Below, piece by piece: positions 11,406 to 18,622 of a DNA stretch of 33,450 nt. A program made the translations under genes and the position numbers. Source of the DNA: an uncultured Clostridia bacterium (GTDB lineage: Bacteria; Bacillota; Clostridia; Christensenellales; Borkfalkiaceae); assembly GCA_947589565.1 (NCBI GenBank), contig CANQBW010000019.1:1-33450 (forward strand), written 5' to 3'. Positions within the stretch are counted from its first letter, which is position 1, and every line of letters begins with the position of its first letter. The notes beneath the pieces were generated by a model. It made no database searches. It was not told where the DNA came from and worked only from the letters and a program-made list of their open reading frames with translations.

Positions 11406-11798
11406 ATGGGAATTTTTCAGCTGATCGGCATCGCCCTCATCACGGCAGTCGCGGCGCTCGTTCTAAAGAGCACAAAACCCGAACTCGCCCTCGCCGTCAC
11501 GATCGCGGGGAGCGTCATTCTTCTCCTGTTCGCCTTTGAAATTCTGCGGGGGAGCCTCACGATCTTTCAAAGGATCACCGAAGTGACGGGGATACAGTCC
11601 TCCCTCGTGAAGATCCTTTTAAAGATGGTCGGGATCGGGTATTTGGTCGAGTTCAGTTCGGGAATTTTATCCGATTTCGGGCAAAACGCCCTCGCGGACA
11701 AACTTGTCTTCTGCGGAAAGATCATCATCCTCGTTCTGGCGGTTCCCATCATCGAGAGCCTTCTGACGCTGATATTAAAACTTTTGGAGCTTGTATGA
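11406..11798 (+). CDS. spoIIIAD: Stage III sporulation protein AD
   Basis: 130 residues, starting two bases after spoIIIAC and overlapping spoIIIAE by ATGA. Hydrophobic protein with about four membrane segments. The KSTKPELALAV motif and the central region SLVKILLKMVGIGYLVEF are typical of SpoIIIAD. It is related in sequence to SpoIIIAC over its first half, as expected in this family. Membrane subunit of the mother-cell channel complex. Confidence 0.93.
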   Translation: MGIFQLIGIALITAVAALVLKSTKPELALAVTIAGSVILLLFAFEILRGSLTIFQRITEVTGIQSSLVKILLKMVGIGYLVEFSSGILSDFGQNALADKLVFCGKIIILVLAVPIIESLLTLILKLLELV

Positions 11799-12976
11799 GA
11801 GGAAAAGTCCGCCGAAAACTCTATCTCGTGTTGCTCTTGATCCCCTTTTCCGTTCTGTTTTTCTGCGGTGCGGCCAAGCCTGTTTCCGCAGAGGAGGAGG
11901 GGAAGGAGCAATTCGACGCGCAGATCGAAGAACTCATCGGAGCGCTCGACACTTCCGAGCTTCAAAAATACTTGAGTTCGCTCTCCGAGTTTAAGGGAGT
12001 CTCCCTCAAAGAGCGGCTCAAGAATATGATCTCGGGGGACTACGTCCTCGATTACTCCTCTTTGGGACAGGCGATCTTGGGACAAGTCTTCGAGGAGATT
12101 TCCATACTTTTGCCCGCATTTGCCGTCATTTTGGCGATCTCTCTGCTCTGCGGCGTCCTCAACTCCTCGAAAAACGGCTTTTTGCATAGTACTATGTCAG
12201 ACATAATCGGCTTCGTCGGCTTTATTTCGGTCGGGACGATCGTCCTTTCTTGCCTCATTTCGGTGCTGTCGGTGGGTTTTGCCTCGATCGAGAGTATGCG
12301 AAGGCAGATGGAGATCGTCTACCCGCTTCTGCTCACTTTGATGGCGGCGAGCGGGGGAACCGTCTCCGCTGCGGTCTTCCGTCCTGCGGTCGCCTTTATG
12401 AGCGGGGGGATCGTAGAACTCTTTTCCTCGATCGTTTTGCCCGCCTCCGTCGTCGTCATCGTGCTCGCCTTTGTCGGGAATCTCTCGGACAGCGTCCGCA
12501 CCGAAAAGCTCGGCGACTTTTTCAAGAGCCTTTCGAAGTGGCTCATCGGGCTCACGCTCGGGCTCTTCAGCCTCTTTCTGACCATTCAGGGAATGACCTC
12601 GGCGCAGTACGACGGAATTTCACTGAGGGCGGTCAAATACATCGTCTCCGGTTCCGTTCCCATCGTAGGCGGGTTTCTGTCGGGCGGCGTGGAGCTGGTT
12701 GCGGCGGGCAGCGCCCTCATCAAGAATGCGCTCGGCGCGTTTGCGATCTTTCTTCTCGTGGCAGCCGTATTGAAACCCTTGCTGCTGTTTGTGGCATTCC
12801 AGCTCTTTTTGCGGCTGTCTGCTGCCGTCACCGAGCCCATCGGGGGGAAGATCCCCGCCTTTTTGTCGCGGCTTGCAACGGACAGCGGCTACTTCATCGC
12901 GGGACTTCTTTGCGTCGCATTTCTATACTTTTTGACGATCGTACTCATCGTCTGTTCCTCGGGGGTGATCTTTTGA
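11795..12976 (+). CDS. spoIIIAE: Stage III sporulation protein AE
   Basis: 393 residues. A signal-peptide-like N terminus (VSAEEEG after a hydrophobic stretch) is followed by an extracytoplasmic amphipathic region and about six to seven membrane helices, the normal topology of this largest SpoIIIA membrane protein. It overlaps spoIIIAD (ATGA) and spoIIIAF (TTGA). Odd feature: codons 131-137 (12185-12205) are the AT-rich palindromic sequence encoding HSTMSDI that also occurs, identical in DNA and frame, in dxs. It lies in the loop before a membrane helix where family members are variable, so the protein is probably still functional. Confidence 0.95.
   Translation: MRGKVRRKLYLVLLLIPFSVLFFCGAAKPVSAEEEGKEQFDAQIEELIGALDTSELQKYLSSLSEFKGVSLKERLKNMISGDYVLDYSSLGQAILGQVFEEISILLPAFAVILAISLLCGVLNSSKNGFLHSTMSDIIGFVGFISVGTIVLSCLISVLSVGFASIESMRRQMEIVYPLLLTLMAASGGTVSAAVFRPAVAFMSGGIVELFSSIVLPASVVVIVLAFVGNLSDSVRTEKLGDFFKSLSKWLIGLTLGLFSLFLTIQGMTSAQYDGISLRAVKYIVSGSVPIVGGFLSGGVELVAAGSALIKNALGAFAIFLLVAAVLKPLLLFVAFQLFLRLSAAVTEPIGGKIPAFLSRLATDSGYFIAGLLCVAFLYFLTIVLIVCSSGVIF
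12185..12205 (+). repeat. 21-nt double palindrome, copy in spoIIIAE
   Basis: Two overlapping palindromes: CATAGTACTATG (12185-12196), and ACTATGT-CAG-ACATA (12191-12205), here continuing AT instead of GT. The 21 nt are identical to 18245-18265 in dxs, and the bases before (TTT, one mismatch) also match. Read in frame as HSTMSDI using AT-rich codons unlike the neighbours. Confidence 0.85.
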
Positions 12977-13440
12977 AGGCGTATTTGCTCGCGGTCTCGG
13001 GCGCGATCCTGATCTCGGCGGTCCTCGCCTGTATTCTACCGGACGGAAAGATGGGGAAGTTCATTCGCGGCATGTCGCGGCTGTTCGTCTTCTCCGTGTT
13101 GCTGCTTCCGCTTTTGAACCTCTTTTCGGGAAAGGGATTCGTCTTTTCCGCCGCAAACATCGAAGAGGATGGCAGCTACCTTACCTATTGTGCCGAAACG
13201 CTTGCAAAAGAGGACGAAGAGGAGATCGCCAACCTTATCTTAGAGGAATTTCCGCTCGAGATCGGCATCGACGTTGTTCGGAGCGCGGAGCCGGGATTTC
13301 CGCGCAAAAAAATTTCCGTGAAAATTTACGATTCCGGTCTATTGGGGGAGGAGGAGCATATACATATTTTGAGCTGTATCGAAGAGCTTCTCGAAGGATA
13401 CGGCTGTCGGACGGAGGTCATATGGCAGGAGGAGGAATGA
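12973..13440 (+). CDS. spoIIIAF: Stage III sporulation protein AF
   Basis: 155 residues from a TTG at 12973 that overlaps the spoIIIAE stop (TTGA). Two N-terminal membrane helices (about 2-22 and 34-52) are followed by a soluble domain (about 60-155) with LILEEFPLEIGIDVV and the C-terminal HILSCIEELLEGYGCRTEVIW. This alpha/beta domain resembles the ring-building fold in SpoIIIAF, AG and AH. The reading frame stays open far upstream inside spoIIIAE, but that part is a shadow. It is shorter than the Bacillus protein (about 206). Confidence 0.92.
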   Translation: MKAYLLAVSGAILISAVLACILPDGKMGKFIRGMSRLFVFSVLLLPLLNLFSGKGFVFSAANIEEDGSYLTYCAETLAKEDEEEIANLILEEFPLEIGIDVVRSAEPGFPRKKISVKIYDSGLLGEEEHIHILSCIEELLEGYGCRTEVIWQEEE

Positions 13441-13775
13441 AAGACTTCCTGAAGAGCAAGACGGCGAAAATTCTTCTCCTTTGCCTGTTCGCACTCTTGC
13501 TTCTCCTCGCCGTATGGAGAGTATTCGTTGTCGGGGAGAGTTCGGACTATCCCTCGACCGAGGAGGAGAAGAAACTCTGCCGTCTCTTAAATGAAGTGGA
13601 GGGGATCACGGACGCAAGGGCCATGATCACCCAAAAGGACGGCGAGACCGTCGGCGTCATCATCGTGTTCGAGGGTGCGGACAGCATTCTCACGAGGAGC
13701 CGGGTGCTCGACATCGCCTCTGCTGCGCTCAACATCGAGCGCAAGAACGTGCAGGTCTATCCTGCCAATCACTGA
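13437..13775 (+). CDS. spoIIIAG: Stage III sporulation protein AG, unusually short
   Basis: 112 residues from the ATG at 13437 (ATGA overlap with spoIIIAF; AGGAGG four bases upstream; an in-frame ATG at 13422 is an alternative). One N-terminal membrane helix (about 9-28) is followed directly by a ring-building motif: helix KKLCRLLNEVEGI, strand ARAMIT, strand VGVIIVFEGAD, helix SRVLDIASAALNI, strand VQVYP. In Bacillus the protein has about 229 residues because a long beta-rich insertion sits inside this motif and forms the large ring of the channel. Here only about six residues (QKDGET) join the two strands, so that insertion is absent. Operon position and the motif make the identity secure. 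Confidence 0.92.
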   Translation: MKDFLKSKTAKILLLCLFALLLLLAVWRVFVVGESSDYPSTEEEKKLCRLLNEVEGITDARAMITQKDGETVGVIIVFEGADSILTRSRVLDIASAALNIERKNVQVYPANH

Positions 13776-13801
13776 GAAATTATTTGAAAGGAGATAGAAC
13801 T

Positions 13802-14290
13802 ATGTCAAACACCAAGAAAATTGCACTCATGTCAACCCTTGTACTGCTCCTTGCAGTCACCGCCGTGTTCAACTTCGTGCTGGCGGGCACCCGTCCCACG
13901 GCAGAGGCGAGCGGCGATGCGGAGCCCGTCAACTTCTTCACCTCGCACCGCGCCGAGCGCTCGTCGACGAGAAGCGAAGAGTTTTTGGAGCTCGACGGCA
14001 TCATCGAGGCATATGCCTCGGACTCGCAGGAGTATGCTGAGGCGGTCGCAGCCAAGCAGAGAATGGTTAAGCTCATGGAAGATGAGCTCGTCATCGAGAC
14101 GATGATCCGCTCCATCGGATTCTCCGACGCCGTCGTCGTCATCGGCTCGGACTCCGACAACATCAATATCTTCATCAATTCGAGCGAACTCAACGCCGAT
14201 ACCGTCATGAAGATCTTCTCGATTTTCGAAGAGGAGAAGGGGATCCGCAACGGCAATATCATTATCATGCCTATTTATGCGGAAAGTTGA
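13802..14290 (+). CDS. spoIIIAH: Stage III sporulation protein AH
   Basis: 162 residues. The start ATG 13802 has AAAGGAG eight bases upstream; the open frame extends 18 nt further but without a better site. A signal-anchor helix (about 7-28) is followed by a linker and a C-terminal ring-building domain (about 60-160) ending IRNGNIIIMPI. SpoIIIAH is homologous to YscJ/FliF and binds forespore SpoIIQ across the septum. Last gene of the operon, 26 nt after spoIIIAG and with the operon's clearest Shine-Dalgarno sequence, consistent with a structural subunit made in quantity. Confidence 0.94.
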   Translation: MSNTKKIALMSTLVLLLAVTAVFNFVLAGTRPTAEASGDAEPVNFFTSHRAERSSTRSEEFLELDGIIEAYASDSQEYAEAVAAKQRMVKLMEDELVIETMIRSIGFSDAVVVIGSDSDNINIFINSSELNADTVMKIFSIFEEEKGIRNGNIIIMPIYAES

Positions 14291-14299
14291 AAAAAACAG

Positions 14300-14328
14300 T
14301 TGTAAAAAACAAATGAACGTGCTATAAT
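14300..14328 (+). promoter_or_regulatory. Sigma-A promoter before yqhY
   Basis: TTGTAA (14300-14305), a 17-nt spacer, and TATAAT (14323-14328). It provides vegetative transcription for the yqhY-nusB-folD block independent of the sporulation operon upstream. A leader of about 12 nt precedes ATG 14347. Confidence 0.8.
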
Positions 14329-14346
14329 ATACAAAAGGTAAAGACT

Positions 14347-14721
14347 ATGGCAAGTATCAAATACAATCCAAGCGGTCAAAAGGGCAAAATTTCTTACAAT
14401 GCGGATATTGTCAGCGGCATCGTCGTGCTGAGCCTGCGCGAGACAGAGGGGATCGAACTCGTTCCCTCCAAGGGCAAGGGGATCAAGATCTGCTTTGAAA
14501 AAGAGGGCATCTTTGCGGACATCTCCGTGATCGCACACTACGGTTACAATGTTCCCGAACTCGCCTATTCCATCCAGCAGACAGTCAAGCAGATGGTGGA
14601 ATCGATGACGAAGTTCAAGATGGCGAAGATCGACGTCCACATTCAGAGCGTCGTCTTTGCGAAAAATCCTCCTCCTCCCGCCGAACCGACGGAGAGCGAG
14701 GGAGAGAATAAAATCGGATGA
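14347..14721 (+). CDS. yqhY: Asp23/Gls24 family protein (YqhY-like)
   Basis: 124 residues, Asp23/Gls24 (DUF322) fold: N-terminal strands (ISYNADIVSGIVVLSL), central ADISVIAHYGYNVPELAYSIQQTVKQMVESMT, and KIDVHIQSVVF, then a disordered PPPPAEPTESEGE tail. YqhY precedes nusB in Bacillus, where it is linked to control of acetyl-CoA carboxylase. Here the neighbouring accBC genes are missing, so that link cannot be assumed. AAAGG lies eight bases before the ATG. Confidence 0.88.
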   Translation: MASIKYNPSGQKGKISYNADIVSGIVVLSLRETEGIELVPSKGKGIKICFEKEGIFADISVIAHYGYNVPELAYSIQQTVKQMVESMTKFKMAKIDVHIQSVVFAKNPPPPAEPTESEGENKIG

Positions 14722-14726
14722 AATCA

Positions 14727-14756
14727 AATCCCCTTTCCTGATCGAAAGGGGAATTT
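14727..14756 (+). terminator. Stem-loop between yqhY and nusB
   Basis: TCCCCTTTC (14729-14737) pairs with GAAAGGGGA (14744-14752), extended outward by A/T pairs around one bulge, and is followed by ATTTCTCG. It may be a weak terminator or attenuator limiting read-through into nusB; no stronger promoter for nusB is visible. Confidence 0.4.
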
Positions 14757-14770
14757 CTCGTAGGATCAAC

Positions 14771-15172
14771 ATGAGAAGTCAAGCAAGGGAAGCGGCTTTC
14801 AAGATCGTCTTCGCGAGCCTGTTCGGCACGGAGACGGGAGAAAGGTTCCGCAGAAGCGTCTATAAAAAGGAAGGGCTCGAGGAGGAGGACATCGCCTTCT
14901 CGGAGAGGCTTTTTGGTCTCTATTCCACTCACAGCGAAGAACTCTCCGCCCTCCTCCTGGAAAAAGTGGAGCACTTTGCGGAACACCGCATTTACTATGC
15001 CGACAAGGCGATCTTACTTCTCGCCCTTGCGGAAATTCTCTATGCGGAGGACGTGCCGCCCGTCGTCTCCGTCTCGGAAGCGGCGGCGCTTGCCACAAAA
15101 TATTCCACGGAGAACTCCGCGGGGTTTGTCAACGGTGTGTTGGCGGGGGTTATAAATCATGATTCTCATTGA
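14771..15172 (+). CDS. nusB: Transcription antitermination factor NusB
   Basis: 133 residues, an all-helical NusB fold. It starts with the family pattern SQAREAAFKIVFA and includes DKAILLLALAEILY and the C-terminal VSVSEAAALATKYSTENSAGFVNGVLAGV. NusB binds boxA RNA with NusE (S10) and promotes antitermination, chiefly in rRNA operons. The start at ATG 14771 keeps the conserved N terminus and has AGGA six bases upstream; the open frame upstream is not conserved. It overlaps folD by 14 nt. Confidence 0.93.
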   Translation: MRSQAREAAFKIVFASLFGTETGERFRRSVYKKEGLEEEDIAFSERLFGLYSTHSEELSALLLEKVEHFAEHRIYYADKAILLLALAEILYAEDVPPVVSVSEAAALATKYSTENSAGFVNGVLAGVINHDSH

Positions 15173-16007
15173 CGGTAAAAAAATCGCAGCAGAGCTGAAG
15201 GCGGAAGTCAAGGTCCGCGCGGAGGCTTTCTATCAAAAACACGGGATAAAGCCCTCTCTCGCGGTCGTTCTCATCGGAAACGACCCCGCTTCGCAGGTCT
15301 ATGTGCGCAACAAGATCAAGTCCTGCGAAGAGACGGGCATCAAGTCCTGCTCGCATTTCCTCCCGGAGACGGCAACGCAGGAGGAGGCGGTCTCTCTCGT
15401 CAGGAGCCTTGCGGCAGATGATACCGTGCACGGCATTTTAGTGCAGCTCCCGCTCCCCAAACATCTCAACGAGGCGGAAATTCTGCGGGAAATTCCCCAT
15501 GAAAAGGATGTGGACGGATTTTCCGAGTTCAACATCGGCAGACTCTCCATGCAGAAGGAGGGGATCGTCGCTTGCACGCCCTACGGCGTGATGGAACTTT
15601 TGAAGCGCTACAATATTCCCATCGCTGGAAAGCGTGCGGTCGTCGTCGGCAGGTCGAACATCGTCGGCAAGCCGATGTCCATGCTGCTTTTGAATGCAAA
15701 TGCGACGGTCACCGTCTGCCATTCCAAGACGCAGAATTTGAAAGAGGAGACCTCCCGCGCGGACATCTTGGTCGCAGCGATCGGCAAGCCGAAGTTCATC
15801 ACGGGGGACATGGTCAAAGAAGGGGCGGTCGTCATCGACGTCGGGATCAACCGCGGAGAGGACGGAAAACTCTGCGGAGATGTCGACTTCGAAGCCGTCA
15901 AGGATAAGGTTTCTTACATTACGCCCGTCCCGGGAGGGGTGGGACCCATGACGGTGGCGTCCCTCATGGTCAATACCTGCATGTGTGCCGAAAGAAACAC
16001 AAAATAA
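15159..16007 (+). CDS. folD: Bifunctional methylene-THF dehydrogenase/cyclohydrolase FolD
   Basis: 282 residues, full length. Converts 5,10-methylene-THF to 10-formyl-THF with NADP, supplying one-carbon units for purines and formyl-Met. Motifs: YVRNKIKSCEETGI with the catalytic Lys (about 49-62), ILVQLPLPKHL (about 91-101), DVDGFSEFNIG (about 114-124), GRSNIVGKPMSMLL (about 160-173, the nucleotide-binding loop) and PVPGGVGPMTVASLM (about 255-269). The ATG lies inside the end of nusB. In Bacillus xseA and xseB follow folD; here ispA follows directly. Confidence 0.96.
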   Translation: MILIDGKKIAAELKAEVKVRAEAFYQKHGIKPSLAVVLIGNDPASQVYVRNKIKSCEETGIKSCSHFLPETATQEEAVSLVRSLAADDTVHGILVQLPLPKHLNEAEILREIPHEKDVDGFSEFNIGRLSMQKEGIVACTPYGVMELLKRYNIPIAGKRAVVVGRSNIVGKPMSMLLLNANATVTVCHSKTQNLKEETSRADILVAAIGKPKFITGDMVKEGAVVIDVGINRGEDGKLCGDVDFEAVKDKVSYITPVPGGVGPMTVASLMVNTCMCAERNTK

Positions 16008-16011
16008 AGTG

Positions 16012-16030
16012 TAGTATGTCAGACATAGTA
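16012..16030 (+). repeat. Shortened copy of the double palindrome before ispA
   Basis: TAGTATGTCAGACATAGTA: the same sequence as in spoIIIAE and dxs with three bases missing from the left arm (TAGTA-TGTC instead of TAGTACTATGTC). It sits just before the ispA start codon (16038), in the position where a ribosome binding site would be, and so could influence ispA translation. Confidence 0.75.
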
Positions 16031-16037
16031 TCAAGAT

Positions 16038-16913
16038 ATGGATATTTCATTTGAAGACAAGTACAGGGAATACTTTGAATTTTTCGAAGAGACCCTGAAG
16101 AGATTTTGCGCTTCCCTGAAAGTTTTTCCGCCTGTTTTGAAGGACAGCATGTGCTATTCGCTGCTGTCGGGCGGCAAGCGCATTCGTCCGGTGCTGTTCT
16201 TTGCTTCGCTCGACGCCTTCGGTGTCGATTTTAAAGAGGAGCGGGAACTTGCGCTCGCGCTTGAGTGTATCCATACTTATTCGCTGATCCATGATGACCT
16301 TCCGGCGATGGACAACGACGATTTCAGAAGGGGAAATCCCTCCAATCATGTGGTCTATGGGGAGGCGAACGCCATTTTGGCGGGAGACGCCCTGCTTTCG
16401 GAGGCGTGCAGTCTGATGTTCTCCGCGGCGAAGAAGAGCGGACGGCATCTTGAAGCCGCGTTCTATCTCTCGGAGTGCGCGGGAGCGCGCGGTATGGTCG
16501 CGGGACAGTCCGCTGACCTTCTCTATTCGGGAAAGAATGCGGGAAAGGACGATCTTGAATTTATCTATTCCCACAAGACGGGGAAACTCATCGCGGCTCC
16601 CCTCGTCATGGCTGCAATTTTGGCGGGTAGCGACAAAAATATTGCCGAGGAGTTCGGTATGGAACTTGGGCGGCTCTTCCAGCTGACGGACGACCTTCTC
16701 GACGCCAAGGGGGACAGCCAAAAGATGGGCAAGACCCTCGGCAAGGACGCCGAGGAGGATAAACTCACCTGCGTCAAGCTGTACGGGATCAAGGATTCGG
16801 AGCTTTTGGCGGATAAGTCTGCTTCCAAATGCCTTGAAATGATTCAAAAACATTACGACAACAATTTCTTCTTTGAGGGGATCGTGCGGCTCGTTCGCGG
16901 TCGGGACATTTGA
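16038..16913 (+). CDS. ispA: Polyprenyl (farnesyl/geranylgeranyl) diphosphate synthase
   Basis: 291 residues. Chain-elongating trans-prenyltransferase joining IPP to allylic diphosphates for quinone, undecaprenyl and other isoprenoids. Visible: GGKRIRP (about 46-52), first Asp-rich motif DDLPAMDND (about 90-98) followed by RRG, GDALLSEA (about 115), HKTGKLI (about 181-187), and second Asp motif QLTDDLLD (about 217-224). The product length (C15 or C20) cannot be told by eye. The start at ATG 16038 has no strong Shine-Dalgarno sequence, and the palindromic repeat lies just upstream. It overlaps the possible dxs TTG start. Confidence 0.92.
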   Translation: MDISFEDKYREYFEFFEETLKRFCASLKVFPPVLKDSMCYSLLSGGKRIRPVLFFASLDAFGVDFKEERELALALECIHTYSLIHDDLPAMDNDDFRRGNPSNHVVYGEANAILAGDALLSEACSLMFSAAKKSGRHLEAAFYLSECAGARGMVAGQSADLLYSGKNAGKDDLEFIYSHKTGKLIAAPLVMAAILAGSDKNIAEEFGMELGRLFQLTDDLLDAKGDSQKMGKTLGKDAEEDKLTCVKLYGIKDSELLADKSASKCLEMIQKHYDNNFFFEGIVRLVRGRDI

Positions 16914-16915
16914 AA

Positions 16916-18622
16916 ATGGGGAAACTGCTTTCGGACAAGGAGCTGAAAACCGCTTCTTTCTCACAACTGAATGAGCTCTGTGAGCAGATCCGCAGCGAAA
17001 TTTTCAACACGGTCTCCGTCTGCGGGGGGCATTTGTCCTCTAATTTGGGGGCGGTGGAGCTGACGGTCGCGCTGCACCGCGTCTTCGACTTTCCGCAGGA
17101 TAAGATCATCTTCGACGTCGGACATCAGTGCTACACCCATAAATTGCTCTCCGGCCGCGCCGACCGATTCCATACTCTGCGAAAAAGAGGGGGCATTTCG
17201 GGATTTCCCAAGCGGGAGGAGAGCGAGTACGACTGCTACAATACGGGGCACGCGGGGACGGCGATCTCCGCTGCGCTCGGATTCTCCAAGGCGCGGGACA
17301 TAAAGTGCGAAAATTACAAGGTCATTGCGCTCGTCGGCGACGGCGCGTTCAACAACGGACTCATCTACGAGGCTCTGAATAGTATCAGAATACTTGGGAG
17401 CCGCGTTCTCATTATTTTAAATGACAACGGCATGTCGATCTCTCCCACGGTCGGCGGAATGCACGAAATTTTGGGGGAACTCAAAAGCGGGGAGCGCGAT
17501 GTGAGGCTCTTCGAACAGTTCGGGCTTCACTACATGGGGATTTACGACGGAAACAAGCTCGAGAGCATTCTTCCCGCCCTCGAGGAGGCGAAAGGGTTGC
17601 TTGAAAGGGAGAGTGTGCTCCTTCATGTGGTCACGCGGAAGGGGTGCGGATACCCGTTTTGCGAGAATGCGCCCACGGAGACGCACGGTGTGAGCCCCGC
17701 AGGCACAGAGACAAAGGAATATTCCACGGCGCTGGGGGAGGAACTCAGTGCCCTTGCAAGAAAAAACGACAAAATCGTGGCGGTCACCGCCGCGATGACG
17801 GAAAGTTTGGGACTGAGACCCTTCTTTCGGGAATTTCCGGGGAGGGGGATCGACGTCGGGATCTGCGAGGAGCACGCCGCAGTGCTGTGTGCCTCGATGG
17901 CAGCTGCCGGACTCAAGCCCTACTTTGCGATCTATTCCACTTTTTTGCAGCGTGCGTTTGACGAGGTCATCCACGACATCTGTTCCCAGAACTTGCCCGT
18001 GACGATTTGTATCGACCGTGCGGGCGTGAGCGGCGCGGATGGGGAGACCCATCAGGGAGTGTTCGACCTCTCCTATCTTTCGATGATCCCAAACCTTACA
18101 ATTGCGGTGCCCAAGGACATCGGAGAGTTCCGCGCGATGTTGCGTGCAAGCGTTGACTTTGACCGTCCGCTCGCCATTCGCTACCCCCGCGAGGGGACGG
18201 AATCGCCGATTTCCGACATCGAAATTGGGAAATTTGAGGTTTTACATAGTACTATGTCAGACATAGTAATGCTTGCAGCGGGGGAGCGGTGCCTGAAAAC
18301 CGCGGAAAATGTGCGAAGAAGAGCCGAAAAGCTCGGGCGGGACTTTACGCTCGTCAACGCCCGCTTTGTGCGTCCGCTTGACGAGGAACTCTTAAGCGGA
18401 TTGAAGGAAAAGCACATCATCACCCTCGAGGACAATGTGCTCTGCGGCGGCTTTTCGGACGCAGTCGCGCGGTTCTTTGAGGGAAGGGGGAAATTTATTC
18501 ATCGCTTCGGTTATCCCGACTGTTTTCTGCCCCACGGGAGCGCCGGGGAACTTCGGGAGGAGTTCGGGCTCGGAGAGGAGCAGATTTTCGACTGCGTCAT
18601 GAGAATTTATGCGGGCGGATAA
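16916..18622 (+). CDS. dxs: 1-deoxy-D-xylulose-5-phosphate synthase, shortened
   Basis: TPP-dependent condensation of pyruvate and glyceraldehyde-3-phosphate, first step of the MEP pathway that feeds ispA. 568 residues from ATG 16916 (a TTG at 16910 overlapping the ispA stop is possible), versus about 620 in most bacteria. Visible: GGHLSSNLG, DVGHQCYTHK, TPP motif GDGAFNNGLIYEAL...NDNGMSI, CEEHAA with the catalytic Glu, and DRAGVSGADGETHQG. Between NDNGMSISP and LFEQFGL only about 30 residues remain where E. coli has roughly 65; the missing part corresponds to a flexible loop near the active site. In addition, codons at 18245-18265 are the palindromic repeat encoding HSTMSDI, in the less conserved linker after the pyrimidine domain. 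Confidence 0.94.
   Translation: MGKLLSDKELKTASFSQLNELCEQIRSEIFNTVSVCGGHLSSNLGAVELTVALHRVFDFPQDKIIFDVGHQCYTHKLLSGRADRFHTLRKRGGISGFPKREESEYDCYNTGHAGTAISAALGFSKARDIKCENYKVIALVGDGAFNNGLIYEALNSIRILGSRVLIILNDNGMSISPTVGGMHEILGELKSGERDVRLFEQFGLHYMGIYDGNKLESILPALEEAKGLLERESVLLHVVTRKGCGYPFCENAPTETHGVSPAGTETKEYSTALGEELSALARKNDKIVAVTAAMTESLGLRPFFREFPGRGIDVGICEEHAAVLCASMAAAGLKPYFAIYSTFLQRAFDEVIHDICSQNLPVTICIDRAGVSGADGETHQGVFDLSYLSMIPNLTIAVPKDIGEFRAMLRASVDFDRPLAIRYPREGTESPISDIEIGKFEVLHSTMSDIVMLAAGERCLKTAENVRRRAEKLGRDFTLVNARFVRPLDEELLSGLKEKHIITLEDNVLCGGFSDAVARFFEGRGKFIHRFGYPDCFLPHGSAGELREEFGLGEEQIFDCVMRIYAGG
18245..18268 (+). repeat. Double palindrome, copy in dxs
   Basis: CATAGTACTATG (18245-18256) overlapping ACTATGTC-A-GACATAGT (18251-18267), a perfect 8+1+8 palindrome. 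The first 21 nt are identical to 12185-12205 in spoIIIAE and are read in the same frame (HSTMSDI). AT-rich codons (AGT, ACT, TCA, ATA, GTA) contrast with the GC-rich surroundings. Confidence 0.85.

Follow-up and report, generated by a model that had tools for sequence, protein, structure and literature searches.

Palindromic sites around the replication terminus of uncultured Clostridia: a probable terminus-marking system with a putatively membrane-anchored PadR-type protein as candidate binder

Why do two genes of an uncultured Clostridia bacterium, spoIIIAE and dxs, carry the same palindromic sequence of 21 nt in the same reading frame? We addressed this question for a stretch of 33,450 nt (the window), which is contig C19 of the bacterium's 1.59-Mb genome assembly, G000 (GCA_947589565.1; 73 contigs). 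As an earlier sequence-only reading of the window had noticed, the copies at 12185-12205 and 18245-18265 agree in all 21 nt, and both translate as HSTMSDI. They are also the only places in the window that match CATAGTACTATG with at most one mismatch, where 0.02 are expected, in agreement with that reading's view that chance identity is unlikely. The comparisons reported below lead us to regard the palindromes as, quite probably, sites of a system that marks the replication terminus and that is bound by a membrane-tethering PadR-type protein.

Site family, shared positions and reading frame

Each 21-mer sits inside a larger unit, TTTTRCATAG followed by TACTATGTCAGACATARTM. Scanning the window with a sequence profile (score of at least 5) returned exactly three sites and nothing in the reversed control (Table 1). 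The third site lies between a gene that we read as folD and ispA, 7 nt before the ATG of ispA. It had been described earlier as a version lacking three bases; it is instead a full palindrome of 19 bp, with one mismatch, and no TTTTGCATAG extension can be recognised to its left. A count over the whole genome, which the sequence-only reading had called for, gave 43 places in G000 that match TACTATGTCWGACATAGTA with up to 3 mismatches, the reversed pattern giving 0. After alignment and orientation, the extension TTTTGCATAG was found within 3 mismatches in 33 of 44 G000 sites. G000 has 36 exact copies of the 13-mer core, TATGTCWGACATA, compared with 0 to 14 in each of 20 further genomes from the genus, and the reversed control was 0 in all 21; by a looser pattern, the near relative G091 has 38 sites versus 12 to 18 in six others. 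Across the order, 59 of 297 genomes hold a core and 19 have one reversed-control match each. Core counts are concentrated in the families that we label f1, f32, f19 and f18, with single matches elsewhere.

We then compared 120 sites from 10 genomes, namely those whose exact-core places appeared among the matches listed. Many positions recur among these genomes, within dxs, spoIIIAE, miaA and glmS, between nadD and rsfS, and beside purB, typA, thrS and others (genes were called with a home-made coding-score script rather than a standard annotator, and names other than the Pfam-supported ones are our own reading of the proteins). The spoIIIAE orthologues of four other genomes also hold sites, and the position of site 3 is common to dxs across the genus, with synonymous codons mostly frozen.

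The dxs position was analyzed in the best-scoring 30 of 101 genomes, the codon analysis covering all 30 together with 9 of 12 wider relatives. All 20 readable loci among the 30 retain the 19-mer within 3 mismatches. The outcome that the sequence-only reading had named as refuting its idea, the same residues written with other codons in relatives, proved rare in the 30 genus sequences. AGT is present in 30/30 (rank 1 of 358 scored columns), ACT in all 26 sequences encoding Thr (rank 4 of 358), ATA in all 28 with Ile (rank 11 of 358), and GAC in all 26 with Asp (rank 22 of 358), and the serine of the site is encoded only by TCA (17) or TCT (13), which fits the W at the centre. The exception is His, with CAT in 27 and CAC in 3. 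Since His is CAC in these 3 sequences and the Met codon is altered in 11 of the 30, site copies evidently decay. Aligned with the dxs of locus L169 (59% identical), the genus sequences show no insertion at the site, where the residues differ; in the comparison with the more distant L172 (37%), the alignment has a gap of one residue at this place. The nearer dxs relatives are metagenome-assembled genomes of uncultured Clostridia, one of them Candidatus Gallimonas gallistercoris; they are probably gut bacteria.

The shared reading frame of the intragenic sites has a simple explanation. Read forward, the full site has a stop in two of its three frames, so that a site lying in the direction of its gene has a single open frame, LHSTMSDIV, and 16 of 22 intragenic sites use it. 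The glmS copies (G000 C15:6482 and G010 C2:51985) are read in another frame and have GAG in place of TAG (ACAGAG for ACATAG), which avoids an in-frame stop. In two genes of G000, the site also provides the start codon (TATGTCWGA, read as M-S-D); by our own reading, these genes encode an ABC-transporter-like protein (L048:5362-6156; site at C1:57071) and a PurB-like protein (L060:2570-4006; site at C9:18583).

Some arrangements of the sites in G000 are noted here for their own sake. Four palindromes lie within about 85 bp at C22:6516-6600, and pairs occur at C11, C15 and C30. By eye, the intergenic sites at C5:44666, C11:3605 and C61:4028 directly follow terminator-like hairpins.

Sites around the replication terminus and their polarity

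In four large contigs from two families, the sites surround the replication terminus. Contig C1 of G055 (306 kb) shows a switch of both GC skew and gene strand near 220 kb; its 15 profile matches with a score of at least 15 lie at 118-299 kb, with none in the reversed control, and a looser cut-off added two matches and one control match. Both also switch in G048 C4, near 90-100 kb (7 matches, control 0), and G031 C3 has a switch of gene strand near 30 kb (12 matches, control 0). Contig C1 of G134, a genome of family f32, has its switch of skew and strand near 172 kb and 23 matches (control 1) at 4-295 kb; 400 of its 476 kb were read, and no site was found from 295 to 400 kb. Two contigs show both sides of the terminus well, and the sites spread there over about 180 to 290 kb.

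By comparing the sequence beside a recombinase gene, we found an inverted repeat with an 11-6-11 layout, TATTCGYAAAA-N6-TTTTRCGAATA, that is present without mismatch in all four terminus contigs and also in loci of G015, G013 and G017 (Table 1). We take this repeat for dif. Its neighbour is a tyrosine-recombinase (Xer-type) gene, 93-189 bp away in G055, G031 and G134 and 7.7 kb away in G048; the G015 copy of the recombinase matches Phage_integrase with an E value of 3.3e-30. The Bacillus dif consensus gave no good match, the best having 8 to 12 mismatches of 28. In several genomes the repeat stands just upstream of the recombinase gene, and in some a further copy of one arm, ATTCGTAAAATTGAC, lies close to the start of that gene, which suggests that the recombinase may control its own expression. 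We also observed that the polar extension TTTTGCATAG and the dif-like arm TTTTGCGAATA both start with TTTTGC and that some sites read TTTTGCGAAG, a likeness that may be due to chance.

The position of dnaA points in the same direction. In 18 of 18 genomes with complete site lists, dnaA lay on a contig without a listed site (some of these contigs may be short); on this ground and that of the clusters on the terminus, we rejected a set of origin-proximal, ParB-like sites. In G000 itself, 38 independent sites fall on 17 contigs versus 26.2 expected (P = 1.5e-4; lengths were interpolated for 36 of the 73 contigs).

The sites are also oriented. Seventy of the 120 compared sites are clearly polar, and with direction judged by local GC skew, 66 of these 70 point with the leading strand (36/36 outside G000 and 30/34 within it), as does site 1 of the window. 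The same holds for 12 of 13 sites located between convergent genes. In G055, G031 and G048, which lie outside the 10-genome set, 18 of the 21 sites whose orientation is clear are directed toward dif, and two of the three exceptions are within 0.4 kb of it. When 113 sites were oriented by skew alone (those with an absolute skew up to 0.01 being left out), the resulting logo held 0.66 bits per position in the fork-facing flank and 0.17 in the other flank, with a background of 0.03. Around the dyad of 119 sites, A/T is enriched at about 17, 27, 37, 48 and 58 bp on either side, and the 10.5-bp power was 0.63 versus at most 0.013 in 60 shifted controls, none of which was as strong. At the window's three sites, these phased tracts are only partly visible.

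Table 1. Positions of the sites and genes of the window and of dif-like repeats in other contigs and loci
Feature	Position	Strand	Remarks
Site 1: extension TTTTGCATAG + palindrome TACTATGTCAGACATAATC	12180..12208	+	inside spoIIIAE; profile score 28.9
Site 2: palindrome TAGTATGTCAGACATAGTA, no recognisable extension	16012..16030	.	profile score 30.9
Site 3: extension TTTTACATAG + perfect palindrome TACTATGTCAGACATAGTA	18240..18268	+	inside dxs; profile score 33.6
spoIIIAE, carries site 1	11795..12976	+	Pfam Spore_III_AE, E 7.6e-64
ispA-type polyprenyl synthetase, downstream of site 2	16038..16913	+	Pfam polyprenyl_synt, E 1e-52
dxs, carries site 3	16910..18622	+	Pfam DXP_synthase_N, E 4.6e-90; start 16910 or 16916
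dif-like repeat, terminus contig of G055	220428
dif-like repeat, terminus contig of G134	169241
dif-like repeat, terminus contig of G031	30401
dif-like repeat, terminus contig of G048	93557
dif-like repeat, locus L244	428-455
dif-like repeat, locus L307	9241-9268
dif-like repeat, locus L320	10401-10428
dif-like repeat, locus L335	13557-13584
dif-like repeat, locus L105	3258-3285
dif-like repeat, locus L121	3250-3277
dif-like repeat, locus L140	3183-3210
dif-like repeat, PadR-gene locus L284	106-133		one of two f6 loci; exact
dif-like repeat, PadR-gene locus L293	2135-2162		f16; exact
dif-like repeat, PadR-gene locus L295			f8; two mismatches

A PadR-type protein as candidate binder

One gene has a site upstream in all 10 genomes of the site comparison. 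Its product carries an N-terminal PadR domain (PF03551, E values of 8.8e-19 and 1.9e-19 in two proteins), and its nearest PDB entries are PadR 9qbc (E 3.3e-26) and LmrR 3f8b (E 3.4e-22). In 30 genus loci, the best-scoring 30 of 101 genomes, the product is 571 to 1183 amino acids long. A long, variable and charged region forms the middle part, for which SMC models gave E values of 0.003 to 0.14 in one of two proteins and which is probably a coiled coil. The C-terminus contains four or five overlapping hydrophobic segments in six proteins and four in each of 14, as would befit a membrane domain. The gene was matched in 101 of 103 genomes of the genus, one weakly (G002, E 1.2e-13), and it is the sole PadR match in 7 of the 8 genus genomes scanned, G000 included, G048 having a second, short one.

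The promoter of this gene holds a site with a score of at least 17 in 27 of the 30 loci, the best one being located 60-69 nt before the start in 23. The three loci without a clear promoter site are L196 (uncertain start, none found), L210 (no upstream DNA) and L214 (a weak site, 12.1). For the remainder of the order, we chose 20 loci from 12 families for their long frames, of which 14 were parsed and 6 were read separately. A long PadR open reading frame is present in all 20, and other families, for example f31, gave only short PadR matches. The promoter motif is weaker in another genus of f1, and f29 carries GCATAGTACTATGC, which equals the extension palindrome. Three of these 20 loci have a dif-like repeat no more than about 0.6 kb upstream of the PadR gene (Table 1), and no such repeat was seen in the remaining 17; in G134, gene and repeat are about 8 kb apart.

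PadR-s2 relatives are described as binding ATGT/ACAT inverted repeats (PMC3506622), and from this family trait a PadR dimer would be expected to read the ATGT/ACAT arms of our site. The domain, the promoter site and this half-site make the PadR protein the best candidate binder of the sites.

A terminus-to-membrane tether weighed against other readings

The reading that we favour, as the probable one, can be laid out as follows. A dozen to some forty copies of TAYTATGTCWGACATARTA lie scattered on both sides of dif, in and between genes, and would be bound by a single PadR-type protein present in most of these genomes. Dimers of its PadR domain would read the ATGT...ACAT palindrome, and the helix-phased A/T tracts would allow about 120 bp of DNA to curve around the protein. 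Through its coiled coil and membrane domain, the protein would then attach the terminus region to the cell membrane, probably at the site of division, where chromosome separation would be completed by Xer recombination and DNA translocation. The PadR gene would probably be self-controlled through its own promoter site, and the sites of the window's genus are made polar by an additional half-site (GCATAG) on their fork-facing flank. The site family, its conservation at orthologous positions, the clustering at the terminus, the polarity, the phased tracts, the promoter site and the protein's sequence layout come from computation; binding, membrane location, self-control, bending and tethering are inferred. 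A DNA-binding head, a coiled coil, a membrane domain and sites that ring dif fit a terminus-to-membrane tether, which would be MatP-like in role. Because the sites of the f32 genome are symmetric, anchoring is suggested to have come first and polarity later. Among the open-licence PMC papers listed for PadR or MatP and the terminus, judged by title or by the beginning of the abstract, we found no description of such a system.

Several observations weigh against this reading. On the protein side, the membrane and coiled-coil parts are read from hydropathy and the look of the sequence, and the ATGT/ACAT arms are spaced by 3 nt here versus about 8-10 nt in PadR-s2 operators. Outside the genus, the promoter motif is clear only in the single f18 locus and in one of three parsed f32 loci. 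Loci of f3, f6, f10 and f24 encode the same protein layout behind promoters without the motif, in which we recognised no shared palindrome, and genomes of these families lack the core apart from single matches. As to the terminus, all genomes compared are fragmented assemblies. The GC skew of G031 stays near zero from 20 to 80 kb, shows no switch at the dif-like repeat and is clearly negative only beyond 80 kb. The occupied contigs of G000 total 631 kb, or 40% of the assembly, which is a broader region, and dif was not cleanly found in the G000 loci examined, the best match (L050, about 200 bp from a weak site) having 3 mismatches. Polarity, finally, also matches the majority gene strand in 63 of the 70 sites, so that the directions of replication and transcription are not fully separated, and orthologous sites were counted repeatedly in this tally. 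In G134, the sole f32 genome read, the two flanks are about equal (0.21 and 0.16 bits, background 0.11) and no polarity is seen.

The polarity in the window's genus raises the question of whether the sites stop replication forks. An RTP-like PadR protein would then arrest forks that leave the terminus, the strong palindrome facing dif and the weak extension facing the incoming fork. RTP of Bacillus subtilis is a winged-helix protein that is not known to have a coiled coil or a membrane domain, and its family, PF02334, was not listed in the Pfam scan of the candidate up to an E value of 10, a scan run on the candidate alone and with HMMER filters that may drop weak matches. The dimer topology and organisation of bcPadR are reported as highly similar to those of RTP (PMC3506622). 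The ter site of RTP is described as two imperfect, polar inverted repeats that arrest a fork if it reaches the strong B repeat first (PMC13220808, PMC10331603). Our sites likewise combine overlapping inverted repeats, flank dif with the polarity given above, and have the better palindrome on the dif side. Both rtp and tus are stated to be autoregulated through a ter site in the promoter (PMC10331603), as the PadR gene may be. This polar extension, the promoter site and the structural likeness of PadR and RTP keep a polar fork barrier in play. We consider a fork trap unlikely, since the near-symmetric sites of the f32 genome make sequence polarity impossible there and G000 has 43 sites, more than the nine ter sites reported in B. 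subtilis or the ten in E. coli (PMC13220808). A joint reading, in which a coiled-coil PadR protein integral to the membrane occupies between a dozen and forty bent, polar modules round dif and both anchors the terminus to the envelope and acts as a polar fork barrier, would unite RTP-type and MatP-type roles in one protein across an order of uncultured Clostridia, and RTP might descend from such PadR proteins; we put this forward as speculation of low probability.

Other explanations find less room still. That a different DNA-binding protein, of the ParB/Noc type or a Xer accessory factor, uses the sites and that the PadR gene merely has one copy is improbable: the site differs from parS, its half-site is the ATGT/ACAT of PadR, and G000 has no second PadR match. 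PadR binding is itself a conjecture from sequence, which leaves such a protein some room, and one exact copy of the parS palindrome occurs in the loci examined (L185:8206-8221, G000 contig C21), on a contig without terminus sites; a ParB system may therefore exist in G000, ParB itself not having been searched for. A transcription regulon of the terminus region under a PadR repressor would suit the PadR fold and the site in its own promoter, and is very improbable all the same: dxs, spoIIIAE, miaA and glmS contain sites, others fall between convergent genes, the neighbours are housekeeping genes without a common function, and positions track the terminus. We rejected the regulon on the lack of common function and on the many sites within genes or between convergent ones. 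The sequence-only reading had offered two interpretations, a Rickettsia-like mobile palindromic element inserting in frame and a dispersed binding site with three half-sites. The near-identical copies within and between genes, the several copies at one place (G000 C22 and C30) and the shared positions, which by themselves also fit an old insertion, would be expected of the former. We find it hardly credible and rejected it, given that dxs, the sole gene aligned, has no insertion relative to L169 (and a one-residue gap relative to L172), that its synonymous codons are frozen, and that the sites are polar and clustered on the terminus. The binding-site interpretation fared better: the symmetric core, the polar extension with its third half-site, the orthologous positions and the frozen codons all argue for it.

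How does the favoured terminus-to-membrane tether compare with known systems? matS (GTGACRNYGTCAC) is palindromic, and our site differs from it in sequence. The MatP fold, too, differs from the PadR winged helix, and PadR is the candidate's only Pfam match over the cut-off, no genome search for MatP having been made. Unlike MatP, the candidate has a membrane-like C-terminal domain and a long charged region, and its putative sites are polar in this genus. The likeness to MatP/matS of E. coli lies in specific terminus-region sites bound by one dedicated protein (PMC7394560 and others); our sites are confined to the terminus region in the four contigs from two families and, in G000, by contig clumping only. 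MatP is also reported to contact membrane lipids (PMC6538776). With PadR-s2 and LmrR the candidate shares the winged-helix domain and the ATGT/ACAT inverted repeat; it differs by a long extension with about four hydrophobic segments (about 450-1180 amino acids in all), by the narrower arm spacing, and by sites that span the terminus region. ZapT of Caulobacter is a different protein, described as a non-MatP link between terminus DNA and the Z-ring (PMC7188993). As in dif/Xer systems, the presumed terminus holds a dif-like repeat and a tyrosine recombinase gene, their role being read from sequence.

How bacteria other than enterics handle the terminus is still mostly an open question. One source states that MatP occurs only in enterics (PMC7188993), while another names it in Vibrio cholerae too and restricts RTP sequences to a subgroup of Bacillales (PMC6549158). 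For the cohesion of sister termini during Bacillus sporulation, no settled mechanism is presented (PMC7515245). In this group of uncultured Clostridia, the sites described here are probably a set of terminus markers held by a membrane-anchored protein. Dxs is a clear case of a protein that accommodates a chromosomal DNA signal within its reading frame, and SpoIIIAE, MiaA and GlmS seem to do likewise. The site set could serve to mark the terminus in fragmented assemblies. If our reading is true, a protein dedicated to linking DNA to the membrane, together with its set of sites in an order of Clostridia, would make the terminus question directly testable, and it may show how these bacteria hold the part of the chromosome that is copied last.

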